Below, one piece after another: positions 48,143-56,133 of a stretch of DNA of 64,000 bases. Numbering within the stretch: the stretch's first letter is position 1; each line of letters opens with the position of its first letter. The notes under the pieces are model-generated. The model had not been told where the DNA came from. It searched no databases and saw only the letters and a program-made list of their open reading frames with translations. The stretch spans positions 1 to 64,000 of the forward strand of contig BPJU01000019.1 of the NCBI GenBank assembly GCA_026004775.1, given 5' to 3'. The DNA comes from Pirellulaceae bacterium. Its GTDB lineage: Bacteria; Planctomycetota; Planctomycetia; Pirellulales; Pirellulaceae. The translations under genes were made by a program, and so were the position numbers.

Positions 48143-48216
48143 GGGCGCATAGCTCAGTTGGTTAGAGCGCGTCGCTGATAACGACGAGGTCCGAAGTTCG
48201 AATCTTCGTGCGCCCA
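48143..48216 (+). tRNA. tRNA-Ile (GAT anticodon)
   Basis: A full cloverleaf. The acceptor GGGCGCA pairs with TGCGCCC, the D arm is GCTC/GAGC, the anticodon stem is CGTCG/CGACG around CTGATAA (anticodon GAT), and the T arm is CGAAG-TTCGAAT-CTTCG. The discriminator is A and no CCA is encoded. The integrative element is inserted at its 3' end. Confidence 0.97.
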
Positions 48217-49511
48217 TTCTCTATCTTCCGCAGCTTGCCTATCTTTACAACGGCTTGCGACATAATGCGTTGACTCATCAGCACTTGCGCCGATCGGCTG
48301 CTGTTCGTTGCGAAAGTCTGCGAAAGGCTGCTGCGCCGCGTTTTGCGCCTCTAGTGCGCCGCTTTTTGCGCCGCCTTTTTGTACCCCATAGGCCGCCCGC
48401 TGAAAGTCTTCCTCACGCACTTGTAGGTAGTGCCGTTCGGCCACGTCCGGGCTGTGCCCAAGCCAGGCTGTTAAGACGTGCTGCGGGTATTCGGCCGCCA
48501 ACTCGGTAGCGCGGCTTGCCCGTAGGTTGTGGAACAGCCTGGGCCAGGGTTGCAGGCCAGCACGCTTGACGATCCGCAGAAACTGCGTCCGCATATTGCA
48601 CGCCTTCCAGCTTTGCACGCCCCGCGTCCGATACCGCGGGGCTTCGACTACGTAGACACTGCCGTCGGCCGCCTGGGCGAACGCCTCAGCCAAAATCTCC
48701 CGAAGCTCTGGGAATAACGGCACTATCCGGGTGGCCTTCCCCGCATGGTGTTCCGTCTTGGGGCTGTGGACCACGATGCGACCGCGATCCCATAACACGT
48801 CTTCCCAACGTAACGAAAGCACTTCGGACGGGCAGCGCAAGCCGCCGTAGCGGCATAGTGCCACGATAACACGCCACGTTGGATTGCAAGCCTCGAGCAG
48901 CCGGGCGGTTTCCTCTCTCGTTATGAACCGCTTGCGCTCCGGGTTTGGGGTGGCCGACGCCTTCACGGCCGCGAACGGGTTCGTAGTTGCCAGCCGCCGC
49001 AGCATCGCGTCGCCCCACAATTGCCTGGCGATGCGGATATGCTTATGCACCGTTGCCGAAGCCAGGCCGCGCCTGGTCAGCCACAACCGGTAATCCTCCG
49101 CATCGGCCGCCGTAATCTGGTCCACGTACCGATCGGCACCGAAGTACTCCACCAACGCCTTCATCGGGCCTTGCCAGGCTTCGCGAGTCGATTGCTTGAC
49201 GTCCGACGAACGCCGCTTCGATGTACCCCTGGACAAAATCGCCCAGCGTTGCGCGCTGGCGCGCCTCACACAGGCCAACCCGGGCCAGCTTGTCCCGAAG
49301 GCTGTCGTCGATGCTGCCCAAGCCACCGGGCCGTATCCGCGTCCAACGGGGCGCCGGCACACTTGGCCGCCACGATATGCTCGATGCGGCACTTGATGCT
49401 TTCCGCCACCCGTAGCGAAACTTTCCCGAGCCGCACCGTCCGCCGAATTCCGTTGTTGTCCACGAACAGCAGCCGCCGATTGCCGCGCCGATCCGTTGCG
49501 ATGCTTGCCAT
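48154..49511 (-). pseudogene. int: Tyrosine integrase, broken by two frameshifts
   Basis: A phage-type tyrosine recombinase read in three frames. The N-terminus starts at ATG 49511 behind AGGAG (MASIATDRRGNRRLLFVDNN) and continues to ADTARWLG. One extra base in a C run at 49317-49319 shifts to SIDDSLRDKLARVGLCEARQ, and a second shift near 49213-49230 leads to RSSDVKQSTREAWQGPMKAL. The third frame holds the catalytic domain: Arg in YGGLRCPSEV, His/Arg in FHNLRASRAT, and WLGHSPDVAERHYLQ with the Tyr nucleophile. The C-terminus runs antisense through the tRNA-Ile gene. If the shifts are sequencing errors, the product would be intact. Confidence 0.88.
48196..48218 (+). other. attL: 3' end of tRNA-Ile
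   Basis: A 23-bp stretch running from the T arm to two bases past the discriminator. It is repeated exactly at 55993-56015, which marks the left border of the integrated element. Confidence 0.9.
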
Positions 49512-49573
49512 GTTACGTGCTCCTATCGAAAGCCTCTTCCGCCGACCACGCTGTCGGCCGCCTGGCGTTGCGG

Positions 49574-50031
49574 TCAATTATCGCCGATCCAACGGCCGTA
49601 CCAAACCGGAAAACACACAAACCGACAACCCCGACACTCCGCCCGGATGCTTTGGCCGTTGTGGATACCGTAAGAGTCCCAGAGCCGGCAACCGCACCGC
49701 GGGCAGCGTTCGGTCGCCGCAATCCACTGCCGCACTTTGTCGGTTTGCCACGGCGGGGGCGGGGGCGGGTAGTCGTTGTCATCGCCCCCCGGGGGCCGCT
49801 CGGGGCGGAATCGTTGCGGGGCGAATCCGCCGCCTGGGCGCCCGGGGCGGGGCTGCCTCCCCGGGGGCCACTCAGGCCGCCGGCCGCGTTGCGTCCCTGA
49901 ACGGGGGCAGGGGCGGCTTCCGCCGGGTCGGCCATCGGGCCGCCTTGGGCCGCTTCCGCCGTTCGTTGACAATACCCCGCATCGGTTACGTCTGGAATCT
50001 GCTGCTGAGTCCATAGGGTACGGTACGCCAT
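49574..50031 (-). pseudogene. Zinc-ribbon protein with one frameshift
   Basis: The N-terminus from ATG 50031 (MAYRTLWTQQQIPDVTDAGY) and a Pro/Ala/Gly-rich linker lie in one frame; the C-terminus (GDDNDYPPPPPPWQTDKVRQ followed by ERCPRCGCRLWDSYG and AECRGCRF) lies in another. The frames join if one base is missing in the C6 run at 49785-49790. The end has a four-cysteine zinc ribbon (CPRC...CRGC), perhaps nucleic-acid binding. It lies directly upstream of the integrase. Function unknown. Confidence 0.65.
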
Positions 50032-50059
50032 AGAAATTTCCCCCCCACCGTCTTCCGTA

Positions 50060-50262
50060 TGGAAACGTGGACACAACGCGCAAGTTGTTGTGGCGCAAGC
50101 ACTTTTGTTTCCATTGCCGATTTTTGGACGCTAATGGAAACAAGAACGCTCCCGGATTCCCGTTGGGCAGTTTCCTTGTGTCCACGAGCGTCCAAAATGC
50201 CGCCTGGAAACAAAAGTGCTTGTGGCGCAAGGGTTTAGCGTTTGTTTCCATGCGTCCACGGC
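50060..50262. repeat. Cluster of inverted and direct repeats (GTTTCC/GTCCA)
   Basis: A 37-bp imperfect inverted repeat has arms at 50096-50132 and 50187-50222; both read inward as CAAGCACTTTTGTTTCCA, then TTTTGGACGCT. Around it GTTTCC occurs six times in both directions, often 3-6 bp from GTCCA (50122-50140 in reverse, 50170-50185, 50243-50259). No gene fits this 200-bp stretch. It resembles an iteron-type replication origin or a binding-site array, placed next to the ATPase and primase genes. Confidence 0.7.
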
Positions 50263-50263
50263 G

Positions 50264-51769
50264 TTAACCGCCTCTCGTTCGTGCGGACTCCGCAAGTTCA
50301 GCGGGTGGAGGTAATACGTTAACCTGTTGCCGCGCTTCCTCAATCGAAACCCGCACGCGGTAAACGGCCGCCTTCGTGCCTTGGTTTTCCGAGACACGCT
50401 CGACCAATCCCGTTTCAACAAGCTCACCGTGCCATCCGTGCAGGGCGCTTCGACTAAACTGGAAAGCGCGGCGCGCTTCCGGCAGTGTGTATGCTTCGCT
50501 TCCAAACTTTTCGGCCAATTGCTCCAGCAGTCGAACAGCCGATGCAGACACGCGCCGCCCTAGCATGCGCCCCAGCGGTTCCGAGAGAAGCTCATAAGCC
50601 ACGCCGTAATCCTCGACAGTAGCCTGAACGACGCCACCGCGAATGTCGCGTTGCCGTTGGTGGAGAAGTGCGACTGCCGCCGTCATGGCTAACAATTGTC
50701 CCGCCCCGCGCCGGATTTCGATGCGATTGGTCGGCAGCAAGTCGATTAACGCATCAGCGAAGGGCACTCTTACCCTCAATGGTTCGAGCAATCGTTGCAA
50801 AGCAAAATGTCGTTCCCGGATATTCGCAGCGTCCCCGCTCTGACAAGAGAACCGTTCCGCTAGCTTTTTCAGTACCTGTTTTGTCTGCGCCGCGCTTTCA
50901 TTGGTGGTGACTAATATCATACGATTTAAGTCTTCGTCAAAAATTTGGTTCGTGTTCAACGTTGTCGATTCAACATAGGCAATTGGGCCTTTTTGATATA
51001 CCGCCTCAGTTTGTGGGGCTTCGCCTTGGCGTGTTACTGTGACTAGCCGCGTCAGTTCCCCAGCCGACAGCAGTTCACGCAGTGCGCGAGTCACTTCCGC
51101 CTGATCATCGTCCTGGCGCCGAGAACGTTCGCCCGCCACGACAAACTTATGCCGTAATGAACCGGGTGGCATGTAGTATAAAGCTGTCGTTGACATTGTC
51201 GTCGCGTTTACTGTCGCTTCTTTCGGGAATAAGGACGCAACTTTTTCGATAATGTAACTCTTGCCGCTACTTGATGGTCCCTGTACAAGCACCGCCAACG
51301 GTTGCTCCAAAAGCCGACTTGTGCCGCAAAGATAGAGCGTCAGCGCCAAAGCTTCTTCTCCTGCAACGCCGATTGTCTCAATATCTTGTTTGATCTGCGA
51401 AATTAAATCGGGTGATTGTAACAGGGCTTGCGCCTCAGCGATCACGCGCTTGTCCATTTGCGACAACGCTTGGCGCGATTCGTCAAAAGAATCTGCGCAT
51501 GCTTGTTGCTGTTGTTGCTGTAGCAGGCGCTCTTGGCGTTCATCGGTTTCGTTCGCCAGTCGTAGCAGAAACTCATCATACTGTTTGAATAGCTCGTTGG
51601 CGTCAAGATTAAAACGCGCGGCAACTGTGGAAAAAAATTTGAGTCGTTGTGACGATTTCGCGACATTGATGAAATCTTGAAAGTATTCGTCCGAACGCCA
51701 TACTTCAACAAGCCGCGCGCCGTTTTTTTCTTGCGGGCCGACATCAAAGCGCAATCCGTTGTTCGTCAT
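50264..51769 (-). CDS. AAA ATPase / helicase-like replication protein
   Basis: About 501 residues from ATG 51769, which overlaps the primase stop (ATGA). Walker A is LVQGPSSSGKSYIIEKVASL, and a Walker B-like region with MPPGSLRHKFVVAGERSRRQ follows; VTTNESAAQTKQVLKKLAE is a sensor-like block. The C-terminus has a winged-helix-like segment (LPEARRAFQFSRSALHGWHG). It belongs to the ATPase proteins that accompany primases in small integrative elements. It is the only large gene of the element with no frameshift. Confidence 0.8.
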   Translation of the reverse strand: MTNNGLRFDVGPQEKNGARLVEVWRSDEYFQDFINVAKSSQRLKFFSTVAARFNLDANELFKQYDEFLLRLANETDERQERLLQQQQQQACADSFDESRQALSQMDKRVIAEAQALLQSPDLISQIKQDIETIGVAGEEALALTLYLCGTSRLLEQPLAVLVQGPSSSGKSYIIEKVASLFPKEATVNATTMSTTALYYMPPGSLRHKFVVAGERSRRQDDDQAEVTRALRELLSAGELTRLVTVTRQGEAPQTEAVYQKGPIAYVESTTLNTNQIFDEDLNRMILVTTNESAAQTKQVLKKLAERFSCQSGDAANIRERHFALQRLLEPLRVRVPFADALIDLLPTNRIEIRRGAGQLLAMTAAVALLHQRQRDIRGGVVQATVEDYGVAYELLSEPLGRMLGRRVSASAVRLLEQLAEKFGSEAYTLPEARRAFQFSRSALHGWHGELVETGLVERVSENQGTKAAVYRVRVSIEEARQQVNVLPPPAELAESARTRGG

Positions 51770-52800
51770 TTCGTTTTTCCTTTGTTCTGCAGCGCACGCC
51801 GCCAAGCTTGTCGCATAGCAATTGATTGCTTCGGCTGGTCGTGCGATAGCGAAACGTCGGCCGCGTTCGGCGCTTGATTCGGCCGATACTCGGGCAAGGC
51901 TTCTACGCTACGCAGCAACCACTCGCCCAAGTTTTCCGGCAGGGCCGCATCGCCAAGCGGAAGGCCACACCATCTTTCACTCCGCAACACGTCAACAAGA
52001 TCGCCGCCCGCCGGCAGTTCCGGGGCAAACGTTGCCAGATCGAGCACTCGGACGCTGGCAGCCCCCGCCGCACGCACGCAGTCGGCCGCGTCAAGGGCAT
52101 AACGGCGCCCGGCAGTATCGTTGTCTGGGAGAACGACAACGTGCCGTCCGGCCAGTGGCCGCCAGTCGGTTAACCGCGCCGCCTGGGCGCCGCCGGCCGA
52201 AGTTGAAGCCAAAAGCCCGCATCGCTCGGGCCGCGTCGGCCGCCGGCTCGCCTTCCACCAGGAAGATTGGGCGATCCGCGGGGGCCGCCAGCAGCTCGGG
52301 CAATCGAAATAGCGGCCGAGGCGGCGGCATCGCTGTAAGTCGCCAACCAGTCGAACAGCGCGCGATCGGGCGGATTATTTTGCCGTCAGGGCAATTCCAA
52401 CGAACGACGGCACCGACCACCTCCCCGGCCGCGTCGCGATAGGTCCAGCGTTTTACGGGCCTTCCAAATTTCCGGGATAGCCACTGTATCGCATCCCGCT
52501 CCGTCGGAAATGTTAGTCCACCTGAGCGGCTGCCGTCCGCGCGGGGCAATCTGCTCAGGCGTTTTCTATTTTCATCAGGCCACAAATCGCGCCACGACAG
52601 CCCTAGGACTTGCAGCACGTCGTGCGTCCGACAGCCCGCAAAGCATCGCAACAACACTTGTCCGTCCTTCCCCTCGCCCACTGCGAGGCTCGGCCGGACA
52701 TCGTCATGCGATGGGCAACGCGCGATCCAACCCTTGCCGCTCCGTCGCGGTATGGCAGTCCGCTTTCAAGCCGCTGTAAGACAAAGTTAACTGGGTCCAT
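51766..52800 (-). pseudogene. CHC2/Toprim primase broken by two frameshifts
   Basis: The start is ATG 52800 (MDPVNFVLQRLESGLPYRDG). After a shift near 52725-52745 the frame continues with WIARCPSHDDVRPSLAVGEG, LLRCFAGCRTHDVLQVLG: a CHC2-type zinc finger. FLVEGEPAADAARAMRAFG is the first Toprim motif. At the A4 run 52211-52214 a missing base shifts to LASTSAGGAQAARLTDWRPL and HVVVLPDNDTAGRRYALDAA, the DxD Toprim motif. Repairing both gives a single ~345-residue primase. The stop overlaps the ATPase start. Confidence 0.85.
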
Positions 52801-52807
52801 ACGAAAC

Positions 52808-53251
52808 TTAACTCCCTTCGCAGCGTCGCCCACACCGCGGACAACTCCACGTGCGAACGCGCCGCCGTTGTCCTGGAACCCGCCGCAGCCAACAAACAGC
52901 AACCGGATACCGACAATTCCCACAGACGGACCGCCGCGCCTCGATCAAGGCGCTACCAAAACCGGTAACCATTTCGTCCCACCAGAGCGGCGGCATAACG
53001 TCCGCCGGCCATCCAGCAAGCGGTTCGCGACCGAGTAATTGCAAAAGCTGCCACTTCAATTCGACCGCACGTTCCATGATGGCCTGGGCCACCGGCGCGA
53101 AGGCGCCGCGCGGTAGGGTGATCACAATCCGGGCCGCGGTCCCGCGCCCAACTGGGCTAACCCGGCCGCCTGCCCCTTGAATGACCTCCAGCAGCTCGGC
53201 CGCCCCTAACCTGGCGATCGTTTCGACAATTGAATTACCGCTCCGCGTCAT
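52808..53251 (-). CDS. Zinc-ribbon protein of the element
   Basis: About 147 residues starting at ATG 53251 (MTRSGNSIVETIARLGAAEL); the frame upstream overlaps the excisionase gene. A helical N-terminal part is followed by a C-terminal zinc ribbon (CGNCRYPVAVCWL then SCPRCGRRCEGS). No family was named. It ends 7 bp before the primase start, so they are co-transcribed, and a DNA- or RNA-binding accessory role is likely. Confidence 0.65.
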   Translation of the reverse strand: MTRSGNSIVETIARLGAAELLEVIQGAGGRVSPVGRGTAARIVITLPRGAFAPVAQAIMERAVELKWQLLQLLGREPLAGWPADVMPPLWWDEMVTGFGSALIEARRSVCGNCRYPVAVCWLRRVPGQRRRVRTWSCPRCGRRCEGS

Positions 53252-53454
53252 GCTGGCCAAACTCGCTTTGATCGCAGCCGCCGGCCGAGCGCAAAAAATC
53301 CTCCAATGCAACTTGGGACCAGCCATTTTCCACGCGTGCCGGTTCGCACCGCGCGGATTCGGCCATTCCGCAACAGCTCCCACATGGAACGCTCCGACAA
53401 CCCAAGTACTTGTGCAGCTTCCCGCAAGCTATAAGCAAGACGCTCGGTACTCAT
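53235..53454 (-). pseudogene. xis: Excisionase-like HTH protein with one frameshift
   Basis: The first frame reads TERLAYSLREAAQVLGLSER then SMWELLRNGRIRAVRTGTRG and KWLVP, the helix-turn-helix of HTH_17/excisionase-type proteins. One extra base around 53312-53317 shifts to VALEDFLRSAGGCDQSEFGQ, the normal end of this family. Repaired length is about 73 residues. In an integrative element it is expected to direct excision by the integrase. Confidence 0.8.
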
Positions 53455-53608
53455 AAAAAGCCCTTTCCAACAACGCTTTTGTTAGTACCGAGCGCATTGA
53501 AAAAAACGTCAAGCTTCAACGTTGATTGAGCGCCGGAAATTACGGCAGCGGCACGAGTTTATGGCAAAAGAATTTTGCGATGAGGCGTTGAATTTCCGTT
53601 GAATTTCA
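53455..53608. promoter_or_regulatory. Putative operator region upstream of the excisionase operon
   Basis: A short AT-rich gap in front of the excisionase-led operon. It has a partly palindromic stretch AACGTCAAGCTTCAACGTT near 53505-53525, and CGTTGAATTTC occurs twice around 53586-53608. Such sites would suit the element's HTH regulator; no -35/-10 pair could be named. Confidence 0.35.
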
Positions 53609-53914
53609 TCAACGAACGTCGAATTGGTTTTCCTCGTTGTCGTCGTCGTCGTCGTTTTCGATAATGCCGTCGACGGTTCTATCAACACCGTCGACGGCCA
53701 CGTAGCCGCGATGAATTTTCGCGTTGCATGTCTCGATTTTGCGACGCGCCATGCGCCACGAATCACATTTTGACAACGTTGAAGGGTGAACCCCGACCAA
53801 CTTTGCTACCTCGCGGTCCGACAAATTCGGATTCTGCGCTTTGAGTTTCATGGCTTGCGGCAACCACGGCTTGCGCTTGCGGACGTTCACCGCGTTATCG
53901 TTGGATGATGTCAT
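53609..53914 (-). CDS. HTH protein, possible element regulator
   Basis: About 101 residues from ATG 53914 (MTSSNDNAVNVRKRKPWLPQ). The helix-turn-helix is NPNLSDREVAKLVGVHPSTL, followed by KCDSWRMARRKIE. The C-terminus is very acidic (IIENDDDDDNEENQFDV). Similar short HTH proteins start with a basic KPWLPQAMKLKAQNPNLSDR block in planctomycete elements. It may regulate the element or help replication initiation. Confidence 0.6.
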   Translation of the reverse strand: MTSSNDNAVNVRKRKPWLPQAMKLKAQNPNLSDREVAKLVGVHPSTLSKCDSWRMARRKIETCNAKIHRGYVAVDGVDRTVDGIIENDDDDDNEENQFDVR

Positions 53915-53954
53915 AGCACCCGTGGTAACTTCGTTGTGCAGTTCACGGTCCAGC

Positions 53955-54401
53955 TTATCCACCCACCGCGCAGCCCATAGTGCTAGGGTGGCATACTCTA
54001 ACTTCCACATGCTGTAAGTTCCATACAAAACCACGGTAGTAAACCTTGGGATGCACCGACCAGTCGCCCGATATTTTTTCGACAACAACAGCATCGTTAT
54101 CGACGTAGCGGACAAACTCTGGCTGGGTTGCGGGCTCCTGCAGCTTCACAACACCCAGCGTCGCAAAGGGGTTCCATGGATTGTCGATTGCCAATCGACC
54201 GAGCAATTCTACACCCCGTAGCGCGACCAGACGGCCGTCGAATCTGAAAAACGCATCAAGCGGCGGCAATTCCAGTGTGCTGGCCGCTGCCTCTTCAATA
54301 TCAAAGACCGACTGCACAAACCATTGTGCGGGTACGTCGTGCCGGAAGTTGATCGCGTCAGCCAATTGACGAAACAAGAAACGTAGAGTATCCTTACTCA
54401 T
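53955..54401 (-). CDS. Hypothetical protein of the element
   Basis: 148 residues from ATG 54401, behind GAGGGG. No signal peptide or membrane segment. It has mixed composition with conserved-looking blocks (LRFLFRQLADAINFRHDVPA and VALRGVELLGRLAIDNPWNP) but no family was recognised. The C-terminal ~30 residues might belong to a different frame, since another reading of 53955-54030 (MWKLEYATLALWAARWVDKL) also looks coding. Confidence 0.5.
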   Translation of the reverse strand: MSKDTLRFLFRQLADAINFRHDVPAQWFVQSVFDIEEAAASTLELPPLDAFFRFDGRLVALRGVELLGRLAIDNPWNPFATLGVVKLQEPATQPEFVRYVDNDAVVVEKISGDWSVHPKVYYRGFVWNLQHVEVRVCHPSTMGCAVGG

Positions 54402-54419
54402 ACACAGTCCCCTCGATTT

Positions 54420-55700
54420 GTGTCGCTTGCCGCGGTCACGGACGCCGCGGTTTTTTCTTTCCTACGCTTCTAATTTCGCTTTCTCCGTTGCTTGCAATGG
54501 GTCAAACTACCACGCGCCGCTACCACGCTTCGACGTTTGTAGATTCTGTCACACAACCAACGTCCGCCACTGGTACCGCTTTGAGTCGGCCGCCTGGGGC
54601 GCAACCGGCTGGCGCCTCCCCGGGCCACGGGCGCAGCCGCCCCGGGCCGTTGGCCACGCCGCGCCCCGCCGGCCACAGCCTCTTGCCACAGCCGGCCACC
54701 ACCAGGCAAGCCCGCGAGCCGCTGCCGACCACCCACCACCACCAGGCAGTCGCCACGCGGGGCCGCATCGAGTCGCCCGTCAGGCATTCGCCCCGGCCAC
54801 CAGTCCCCGCGGGCGCCGCCTCCCCGGGGGCGCTTCCCCTGGCGGCTGCCTCCCCCGGCTGCTCCGGGCCGCCCCCGGCCACCTCCCCCGGTCTGCCTGG
54901 TCGGCCGCCTCCCCCTGGCCAGCCGTTGCCCCCGGCCGCTTCCTTCACCAGGGTTGCCGGGCCGCCTTGCCCCCTGCCCGCGGACGGCAACCGCGCGGGT
55001 GCGCGGAACCGCGCGGAACGGGCATCCGCGCACTTAAACGCTTGCGACGCAACAACTTAAGTTAGGTGCGCGGGTGCGCGGGCCACCTGGGGAACCGGGG
55101 CGTGCCTCCCCGCCGCGCGCTACCGCGCCGGCTGGTCGGCTAAGGGGGAGGGAGCTTTGACGTTGCCACCACGGGGTCGCCCCGGGGCAGCACGTTGACG
55201 TTGCCACGCGGGGCCGACAGTTCGCCCGGGCCGCATCGAGCCGCTGCCCTAGGCCGCCCGGGGCGACAAGCTCAAGCCGCCAACGCCACCGGGCCACAGC
55301 CGCCCGGGCGTCCACCACCGCGGGCGCTCCTAGATACCGACAGAACGTTAGGGGGGGTTGACTACGAAAAGACCAAGCCCCTGGCGTGCCCCAGGATTTG
55401 CGCCGACGGGCTTGGACGGCTTCCGAGTCGTCCAACCGCCAAAACGCAATACGGGCCATTCTGTGCGTTTTAACGGGGTTTGTAGACGCTACGAAACTGT
55501 GCCAAAACGGCTACCCCGGGGAATTTTTGCTGCGGTTCCCCGAATGGTCACCGGCAGGGGGCGGGTGATTTTGCCATACCCCGGGGTTGGCCGTACCCCC
55601 GGGGAGCACTTCCCGGATGCGGGCCGCGGGGCGGAAGTCGGCCGCCGAAAGGCGTGAGTCTACGTTAACGGGGCCGCCGCCAGGCGTTTTTCCGCCGGGC
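54420..55700. other. GC-rich low-complexity block of the element
   Basis: About 1.3 kb with very high GC and many GGCC/CCGGG runs; nearly all six frames are open, so open frames here are not evidence of genes. Short motifs recur: GCCACGCGGGGCCG followed by CATCGAG occurs near 54758 and again near 55198, and TTGACGTTGCCAC occurs twice at about 55157 and 55193. Similar CCGCCTGGGC/CCCCGGGG motifs appear in the zinc-ribbon gene linker at 49800-49890. Function unknown. Confidence 0.5.
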
Positions 55701-55797
55701 TGATGTTGCGTTCGAAAAGACGCGGCGCGATTGATTCCTGGGGGCGGAAGTCGGCTGCGTTGGTTGACAAGCTACGTTGGGCGGCATACCGCCGCGG

Positions 55798-55944
55798 TTA
55801 CCGCGCTTCGACGCCGACGCCGCCGGCAGCCATCCGTTGTGCTATGCGTACCAGCTCCGCCTGGTCGTCGCTGGATAACAGCCGCCACAGCCGCGCCAGC
55901 ACCTGCCAAAGCGCGTCGTCGCGCGCAAAGTGCGCCGGATTTTG
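55798..55944 (-). other. Possible gene remnant near attR
   Basis: A minus-strand frame with good helical periodicity (DDALWQVLARLWRLLSSDDQ, then AELVRIAQRMAAGGVGVEA). No conventional start codon precedes it; upstream it reads into attR. It may be the tail of a gene cut when the element formed. Low confidence. Confidence 0.25.
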
Positions 55945-55992
55945 CGCCGCCCTATTGCAAACTATGCGTTTTTCCCGATAATTATCGCGGGT

Positions 55993-56015
55993 GTTCGAAT
56001 CTTCGTGCGCCCATT
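55993..56015 (+). other. attR: duplicate of the tRNA-Ile 3' end
   Basis: An exact 23-bp copy of 48196-48218, located 45 bp before tRNA-Ala. It marks the right border of the integrated element. Confidence 0.9.
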
Positions 56016-56060: not shown

Positions 56061-56133
56061 GGGGCGGTAGCTCAGTTGGGAGAGCGCCGGCTTTGCAAGC
56101 CGGAGGTCGAGGGTTCAAGTCCCTTCCGCTCCA
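56061..56133 (+). tRNA. tRNA-Ala (TGC anticodon)
   Basis: Cloverleaf: acceptor GGGGCGG with CCGCTCC (one G-U pair), D arm GCTC/GAGC, anticodon stem CCGGC/GCCGG around TTTGCAA (anticodon TGC), T arm GAGGG-TTCAAGT-CCCTT. The Ile-Ala order equals the usual rRNA spacer pair, but no rRNA flanks it. Confidence 0.97.

Follow-up and report, generated by a model that had tools for sequence, protein, structure and literature searches.

A decaying tRNA-integrated element of Planctomycetota, its likely satellite family and an integration site inside the integrase gene

What kind of mobile element occupies the tRNA-Ile gene of this planctomycete, and what becomes of its integrase gene when it integrates? 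The window, by which we mean the whole 64,000-nucleotide stretch analyzed here (contig BPJU01000019.1 of a Pirellulaceae bacterium), contains two perfect 23-bp direct repeats of the tRNA-Ile 3' end, whose spacing of 7,797 bp gives the size of the element. A first-pass annotation, made from the letters alone, had described a satellite-like integrative element at this site. Our main new point is one to which the sequences of the element and its relatives lead: the integration site lies inside the integrase gene, and integration appears to replace the tail of this gene by a tRNA-coded peptide. As for the nature of the element, our favored explanation, held with moderate confidence, is that small elements integrated in tRNA genes form a family found across Planctomycetota, that they most likely live as phage satellites, and that the window contains a decaying copy of one.

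Attachment sites and the integrase tail

Among 59 relatives, at least 14 gave one continuous match, running from tRNA-Ile to tRNA-Ala, to the joined flanks of the element (402 nt); the match covers the whole tRNA-Ala in at least 11 of them and part of it in at least three (for example, 81% over 187 nt in G019). Because the joined flanks match a contiguous pair in these relatives, the element has split an old tRNA-Ile/tRNA-Ala pair. The empty sites and the perfect repeats bear out the integrative element that had been proposed in tRNA-Ile, and from this sequence evidence we regard the element and its attachment sites as certain. Two further claims held up: an integrase lies at the left border (Pfam Phage_integrase, E 2.1e-14; PHROGs phrog_1, E 1.2e-41), and the element encodes an excisionase-like helix-turn-helix (HTH) protein (Pfam HTH_17, E 4.7e-8). 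The source genome (6.14 Mb in 30 contigs) has a single copy of the 513-aa ATPase that marks the element. Close to both ends of the element we also observed similar TGCGCCG..TTTTGCGCC repeats (Table 1), which may be arm-type sites.

The integrase gene overlaps the tRNA gene at one end of such elements, and we considered what its reading frame does at the far copy of the tRNA end. Among 25 loci examined, seven have a well-matched far copy, and the others, apart from those taken up with the counterevidence below, have no usable far repeat. Six of the seven carry their integrase on the tRNA, and in each of them the integrase frame runs on through the far copy to a tail of the form L..LI..W..LP..(V/I)...I. 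The remaining locus, L072, has its integrase away from the tRNA and shows no tail. A model built from six tails found a held-out seventh, L137/L074, at E 1e-5. A search of 296 genomes from the order, the source genome included, gave tail matches at E 1e-3 in 125 of them, and among the matches listed most lie in short frames. A full tRNA T-loop pattern stands upstream of 15 of 30 such orphan tails, compared with 126 of 2,400 background windows, and by sequence reading many of the other orphan tails appear to be preceded by shorter tRNA ends. Two IMG/VR contigs carry the tail as well. Three tail-bearing frames gave no Pfam family.

Tail neighborhoods were also fetched blind, as 20 stretches, of which 16 span at least 13.8 kb and four less than 2.1 kb. 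All five that have an integrase overlapping a tRNA show an exact tRNA repeat of 14-53 nt ending 86-93 nt before the tail; among the other 15, 13 gave no same-strand integrase match, L236 gave a weak partial one, and L238 has an integrase without a tRNA. Since none of these five loci shows a helicase of the window type, the tail arrangement is wider than the helicase family. The joined form of the gene can be seen too. At least 12 tail matches lie in frames of 200 codons or more, and of the eight that were examined, three hold the integrase domain and the tail in one frame, which is complete in L249, truncated by the end of the contig in L254 and partial in L255; five do not. In a tandem pair at tRNA-Glu of G044 (L257-L260; G044:C21:50836-62667), a second copy of the 21-nt core lies at a distance of 10,365 bp. 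The outer integrase has the tRNA-coded peptide at its end, and the frame of the inner integrase crosses the core and takes in the tail, making 556 codons in all.

With attP inside the integrase gene, it follows that integration swaps the conserved tail for a tRNA-coded peptide. As a fact of sequence this swap is well supported, and we infer that it affects integrase activity. A comparable arrangement is described for the Myxococcus phage Mx8, where attP lies within int, which acquires a new 3' end on integration, and phage Mx9 is similar (PMC6070905, in part). Here, the same position of attP is indicated by the in-frame continuation at the far repeat and by the G044 tandem fusion. Mx8 and Mx9 are single phages, whereas the arrangement found here recurs across numerous genomes and tRNA genes, the tail being conserved and its replacement encoded by the tRNA, so that a known feature of Mx8 becomes a pattern matched, within one order, in the 125 genomes noted above. 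In SSV-type archaeal integrases and in the integration-dependent immunity of mycobacteriophages, attP likewise lies in a gene that integration splits or truncates. In those systems the integrase is partitioned or the repressor cut, whereas the integrase here gives up its conserved tail and gains a peptide encoded by the tRNA. The tail also offers an inexpensive way to recognize where elements integrated in tRNA genes have their far end when a genome is fragmented.

The element family and its replication module

Relatives of the element at other planctomycete tRNA genes, a point raised by the first-pass annotation, proved plentiful. Matches to the 513-aa ATPase were found in 4 of 60 genomes, 38 of 392 genomes of the phylum and 35 of 396 genomes of the order (E 1e-20), with the source genome included in every count; of 33 named contigs with matches, 17 are labeled planctomycete, one is unlabeled and 15 are labeled as other phyla. 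Single-sequence scans with the ATPase in genome and viral contigs gave no matches, and neither did the ATPase alignment in viral contigs. After mapping of 104 stretches, some of them duplicates, 18 distinct loci (the window included) combine the helicase with an adjacent integrase whose gene overlaps one for a tRNA or transfer-messenger RNA (tmRNA). The targets are Ile, Met, Ser, Arg, Asn, Lys, Val, SeC, Gln, Leu, Phe and tmRNA. L062, with its integrase 72 nt from tRNA-Leu and no overlap, was excluded from this count. Many further ATPase matches in the DNA examined are larger proteins beside integrases away from tRNA genes.

We refer to this ATPase as a helicase on the basis of its predicted structure. 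The label of AAA ATPase that it had been given is matched only below threshold by sequence (Pfam), whereas the predicted fold resembles that of MCM. In an AlphaFold model made with 12 family members in the input (mean predicted local distance difference test score, 82.2), MCM helicases lead the Foldseek matches (best E 2.0e-10, with a modest template modeling score by query of 0.41), and VIA-align likewise returns MCM (Z 22.6 over 277 residues, root mean square deviation 3.2, model residues 105-417). The C-terminal part shows weak sequence likeness to winged-helix regulators (best E 0.019). No staphylococcal Rep or Cch chain stands among the fold matches listed, which excludes nothing. The protein is accordingly best described as a predicted helicase with an MCM-like fold.

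The origin-like repeat cluster named by the first-pass annotation also proved real: in the window, the 260 nt past the helicase stop are enriched in repeats at z 10.0 relative to shuffled sequence, a level reached by 1 of 246 windows. Among 21 elements with enough sequence, of which L036, L037 and L088 form one lineage, enrichment after the helicase gene reaches z of at least 4.0 in 14 and is middling in two. In that lineage and in L068 and L040, the iterons form direct pairs 10 bp apart with a further copy 56-60 bp on. In phage-inducible chromosomal islands (PICIs) and Staphylococcus aureus pathogenicity islands (SaPIs), the origin lies immediately 3' of the replication gene (PMC6092414, in part). 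A PICI origin has two iteron sets on either side of an AT-rich stretch; the location and the repeats of the putative origin seen here agree with a PICI origin, and the order of primase, helicase and putative origin appears to be the plan of phage-inducible islands. We consider the case for a replicon strong.

Some members of the family carry additional genes near the replication module or elsewhere within the element. Type IIG restriction-modification enzymes are encoded near this module at L072:7389-10505 and L040:1608-5108, and a Phd/YefM antitoxin and ParE toxin pair lies within an element on a contig labeled Candidatus Kuenenia (L149:1035-1556).

Satellite life and competing explanations

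The window element resembles PICIs in having an integrase, an excisionase-like HTH protein, a primase, a helicase and an iteron block directly 3' of the replication gene. Like them, it has no recognized phage structural or lytic gene, as judged from nine window open reading frames (ORFs) searched with PHROGs, the sole exception being a sub-threshold match of the ATPase to a terminase small subunit (E 0.044). Its integrase, primase and helicase are present, the first two broken, and its HTH proteins are putative regulators. PICIs are further characterized by a master regulator, by induction and packaging that depend on a phage, and by att sites that prophages never use; a phage contig with the tail type of this family exists. 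The window primase is of the Toprim type, and prim-pol occurs in two Thermogutta relatives. What sets this family apart are its planctomycete hosts and an attP inside int. The elements described as phage-inducible chromosomal minimalist islands (PICMIs) of Vibrionaceae are likewise very small, combine an integrase with an AlpA/HTH_17-type regulator and a primase, in some cases carry restriction-modification cargo, and insert at fis (PMC10803314, in part); here the sites are tRNA genes and there is a separate MCM-like helicase. SCCmec Cch and SaPI Rep are also self-loading or MCM-like helicases of mobile elements, with the SaPI origin beside its gene (PMC7581432, in part). The window ORFs have no Pfam match to DUF927 or Primase_Cterm. 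Staphylococcal cassette chromosome elements use serine recombinases.

The most direct signs of a phage connection come from G052, a genome placed in the genus Thermogutta by inference from labeled genus mates. Between the integrase and the helicase, its tRNA-Ser element (L036) carries a protease-capsid fusion (PF25209, E 1.1e-42; phrog_4523, E 9.2e-71), and its tRNA-Arg element (L037) a terminase small subunit (phrog_2538, E 1.8e-10). A third element of this genome, at tRNA-Leu, has a capsid protein 100% identical to that of L036 (L036:5981-7807; L130:15612-17435) and shares 3,060 bp with it at 96.8%; six other ORFs of this element, searched with PHROGs, give only an integrase. Capsid-forming PICIs have their own capsid gene set, of which the window copy has none, and these three Thermogutta elements have one head or packaging gene each. 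Lone capsid homologues have been reported in the PICIs PmCI172 and SaPIbov5 (PMC6092414, in part). A second Thermogutta genome has a 78% relative next to an integrase at tRNA-Ser, and a 36% capsid relative lies near tRNA-Ser in G725, with no integrase found there. G052 also has a head cluster (L262:4043-10786, G052:C1) that comprises both terminase subunits together with portal, decoration and capsid genes; the large subunit belongs to phrog_38 (E 1.7e-86), and the capsid is the third Phage_capsid_4 gene of the genome. Neither a tRNA nor a family integrase was seen in the 20 kb examined. This cluster is a candidate helper.

Based on these observations, satellite life is likely for elements of the window type. 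In the cycle that we envisage, a signal from the helper phage would lead the excisionase and the tRNA-tailed integrase to excise the element, and the excised circle would restore the full-length integrase. The primase and helicase would then replicate the element from the iterons, the particles of the helper would carry it to a new cell, and there the full-length integrase would insert it, losing its own tail. The phage-inducible satellite gene set of the first-pass annotation is partly supported, by the replication plan and by the head genes of Thermogutta; the window copy itself is broken and has no recognized head or packaging gene, and four probes found no helper in its genome. We see an even chance that the wider picture is correct, in which planctomycete tRNA-integrating elements and phages carry attP in int, and the conserved helical tail, replaced by a tRNA-coded peptide at each integration and regained at excision or tandem insertion, acts as a memory of integration state. 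Satellites would make use of this memory, and in one lineage of them at least, a protease-capsid gene would be the sole gene of its kind, with a candidate helper elsewhere in that genome. In the open-access literature searched, no paper joined phage satellites with planctomycetes, or with Planctomycetes and capsid. The elements form a defined family testable in culturable hosts such as Thermogutta, where lone-capsid elements and a phage head cluster occur in one genome.

Several observations weigh against the interpretation that we favor. Capsid and terminase genes on such elements were seen only in Thermogutta, with the G725 capsid relative in addition, the G052 tRNA-Leu element has a different helicase type (AAA_25), and none of the nine window ORFs was recognized by PHROGs as a head or packaging gene. 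The window element is smaller than PICIs (7,797 bp versus ~12-15 kb). Repeat enrichment after the helicase gene is below z 2.5 in 5 of the 21 elements (L035, L072, L095, L151 and L091). As to the tail, the diverged far repeat of L042 has a stop ahead of it, and the weak far repeat of L038, at a tmRNA gene, has no tail. The first-pass annotation had also suggested looking for a helper phage; no helper gene was found in the genome of the window with four probes, namely phrog_2, a terminase large subunit of the L210 type, phrog_15 and PF25209, which in controls recovered 11 of 14 (phrog_2), 4 of 14 (phrog_15) and 2 of 14 (PF25209), the L210 terminase matching 7 of 149 family genomes. Six of seven carriers gave phrog_2 matches, of which three are clear (G193, G708, G019), two weak (G555, G593) and one spurious (G052); G388 gave none. 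Because phrog_2 missed the phrog_38 terminase of G052, the lack of a helper in the genome of the window is weak evidence either way.

We considered whether the element could instead be plasmid-like, excising, replicating and moving passively or by mobilization in trans without any satellite life. We think this unlikely, though it deserves to be taken seriously: primase, helicase, iterons and integrase make up a complete integrative replicon, Type IIG restriction cargo suits any island, ten cargo ORFs gave no structural family beyond a sub-threshold E of 0.01, and among the helicase-bearing loci examined L036 alone has the L036-type capsid and L037 alone the terminase small subunit, apart from a weak 40-residue match in L062. 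Against it stand the Thermogutta elements, in which a single head or packaging gene lies between those for integrase and helicase, and the ten window ORFs searched with Pfam, which matched no relaxase or conjugation family, in keeping with the first-pass annotation. A remnant of a larger temperate phage, stripped of its structural genes, is an improbable source; full phages share the integrase tail type, as in one of the IMG/VR contigs, where the tail stands at the contig start, ahead of genes for both terminase subunits, a portal and a protease-capsid protein. Relatives at different tRNAs, however, show the same compact plan lacking structural genes, which is therefore more likely ancestral than the result of a one-off loss. 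Least credible to us is that the far-end tail is an open frame arising by chance, or a small gene that has nothing to do with the integrase. High G+C does give rise to long open frames, and the first tail alignment was built from the loci themselves, but the held-out match, the spread of matches through the order in mostly short frames, the near-fixed spacing from the tRNA repeat and the restored fusion in the G044 pair all argue for a true integrase tail. Satellite life is the best of these options, and it draws on relatives in one genus.

Gene content and decay of the window copy

The recognizable genes of the element (HTH ORFs, excisionase-like HTH_17, primase, ATPase, Zn-ribbon ORF and integrase) all lie on the minus strand (Table 1). 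Aligned with its relatives, the integrase is read in three frames, with residues 1-64, ~48-119 and ~101-415 each in a different one, a feature that the first-pass annotation had not noticed. The primase and excisionase also look split. For the CHC2/Toprim primase proposed earlier, PHROGs gives a primase signal in two reading frames (phrog_6088 and phrog_239), and a CPSHDD...CFAGC motif was found in the region by reading the DNA directly; in Pfam, CHC2 has no match in the window ORFs and Toprim_3 stays under the cut-off (E 7e-4). Frames of at least 150 codons cover 0.92 of the sequence outside the element versus 0.74 inside it. Because long host frames flank the element, we judge sequencing error an unlikely cause of the frameshifts, with the caveat that this cover is uneven in the flanks (0.63 to 1.0 per 4-kb block). 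The window copy thus appears to be decaying, bad sequencing just here being less likely, and it can probably no longer complete the cycle of the element.

Table 1. Features of the element and its borders in the window
Feature	Position	Strand	Remarks
tRNA-Ile(GAT)	48143..48216	+	Integration target, stays intact
Tyrosine integrase	48154..49577	-	Three reading frames; integrated-state C terminus read from tRNA antisense
attL core	48196..48218		23-bp repeat of tRNA-Ile 3' end
TGCGCCGCNTTTTGCGCC-like repeats (families D1, D3)	48332..48381		Near left end; putative arm-type sites of the integrase, or excisionase sites
Zn-ribbon ORF (C-terminal CPRCG...WYG)	49574..50251	-	Short matches directly after helicase gene in L068/L136 and L074/L137
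Iteron/palindrome block	50033..50263		Directly 3' of helicase gene; likely replication origin
513-aa ATPase	50264..51805	-	Open frame; predicted MCM-like AAA+ helicase, C-terminal winged helix
CHC2/Toprim-type primase	51766..52916	-	Split across frames; exact extent by sequence reading
191-aa ORF	52808..53383	-	Between excisionase and primase
HTH_17 excisionase-like protein	53248..53454	-	Apparent frameshift at end, by sequence reading
HTH protein	53609..54115	-	Possible regulator
148-aa ORF	53955..54401	-	Hypothetical protein
G+C-rich stretch	54500..55790		Distal third of element, without recognized gene
TGCGCCGGATTTTGCGCC repeat	55929..55957		Near right end; partner of left-end repeats
Orphan integrase tail	55801..55992	-	Frame through att core runs on into conserved tail
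attR core	55993..56015		Second copy of 23-bp repeat
tRNA-Ala(TGC)	56061..56133	+	Neighbor of tRNA-Ile prior to insertion

The HTH ORF at 53609-54115 was considered as a terminase small subunit and dropped, as its matches in PHROGs are confined to HTH and excisionase families and are weak. In a local tblastn search of 169 records including the window, this ORF and the 148-aa ORF matched only the window's own copies.

Two further observations concern relatives elsewhere. Tandem arrays in G625 (L077, L078) and G728 (L079) are near-identical, with units of ~8.65 and 7.1 kb, and are not at tRNA genes; they were rejected as family members on account of their larger helicase proteins and of integrases not seen adjoining a tRNA. 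At L042:9032-10300, the N-terminal half of the helicase is fused to the C-terminal half of the integrase beside tRNA-Ser, with the tail 1.8 kb away, and this locus is probably a deletion remnant.

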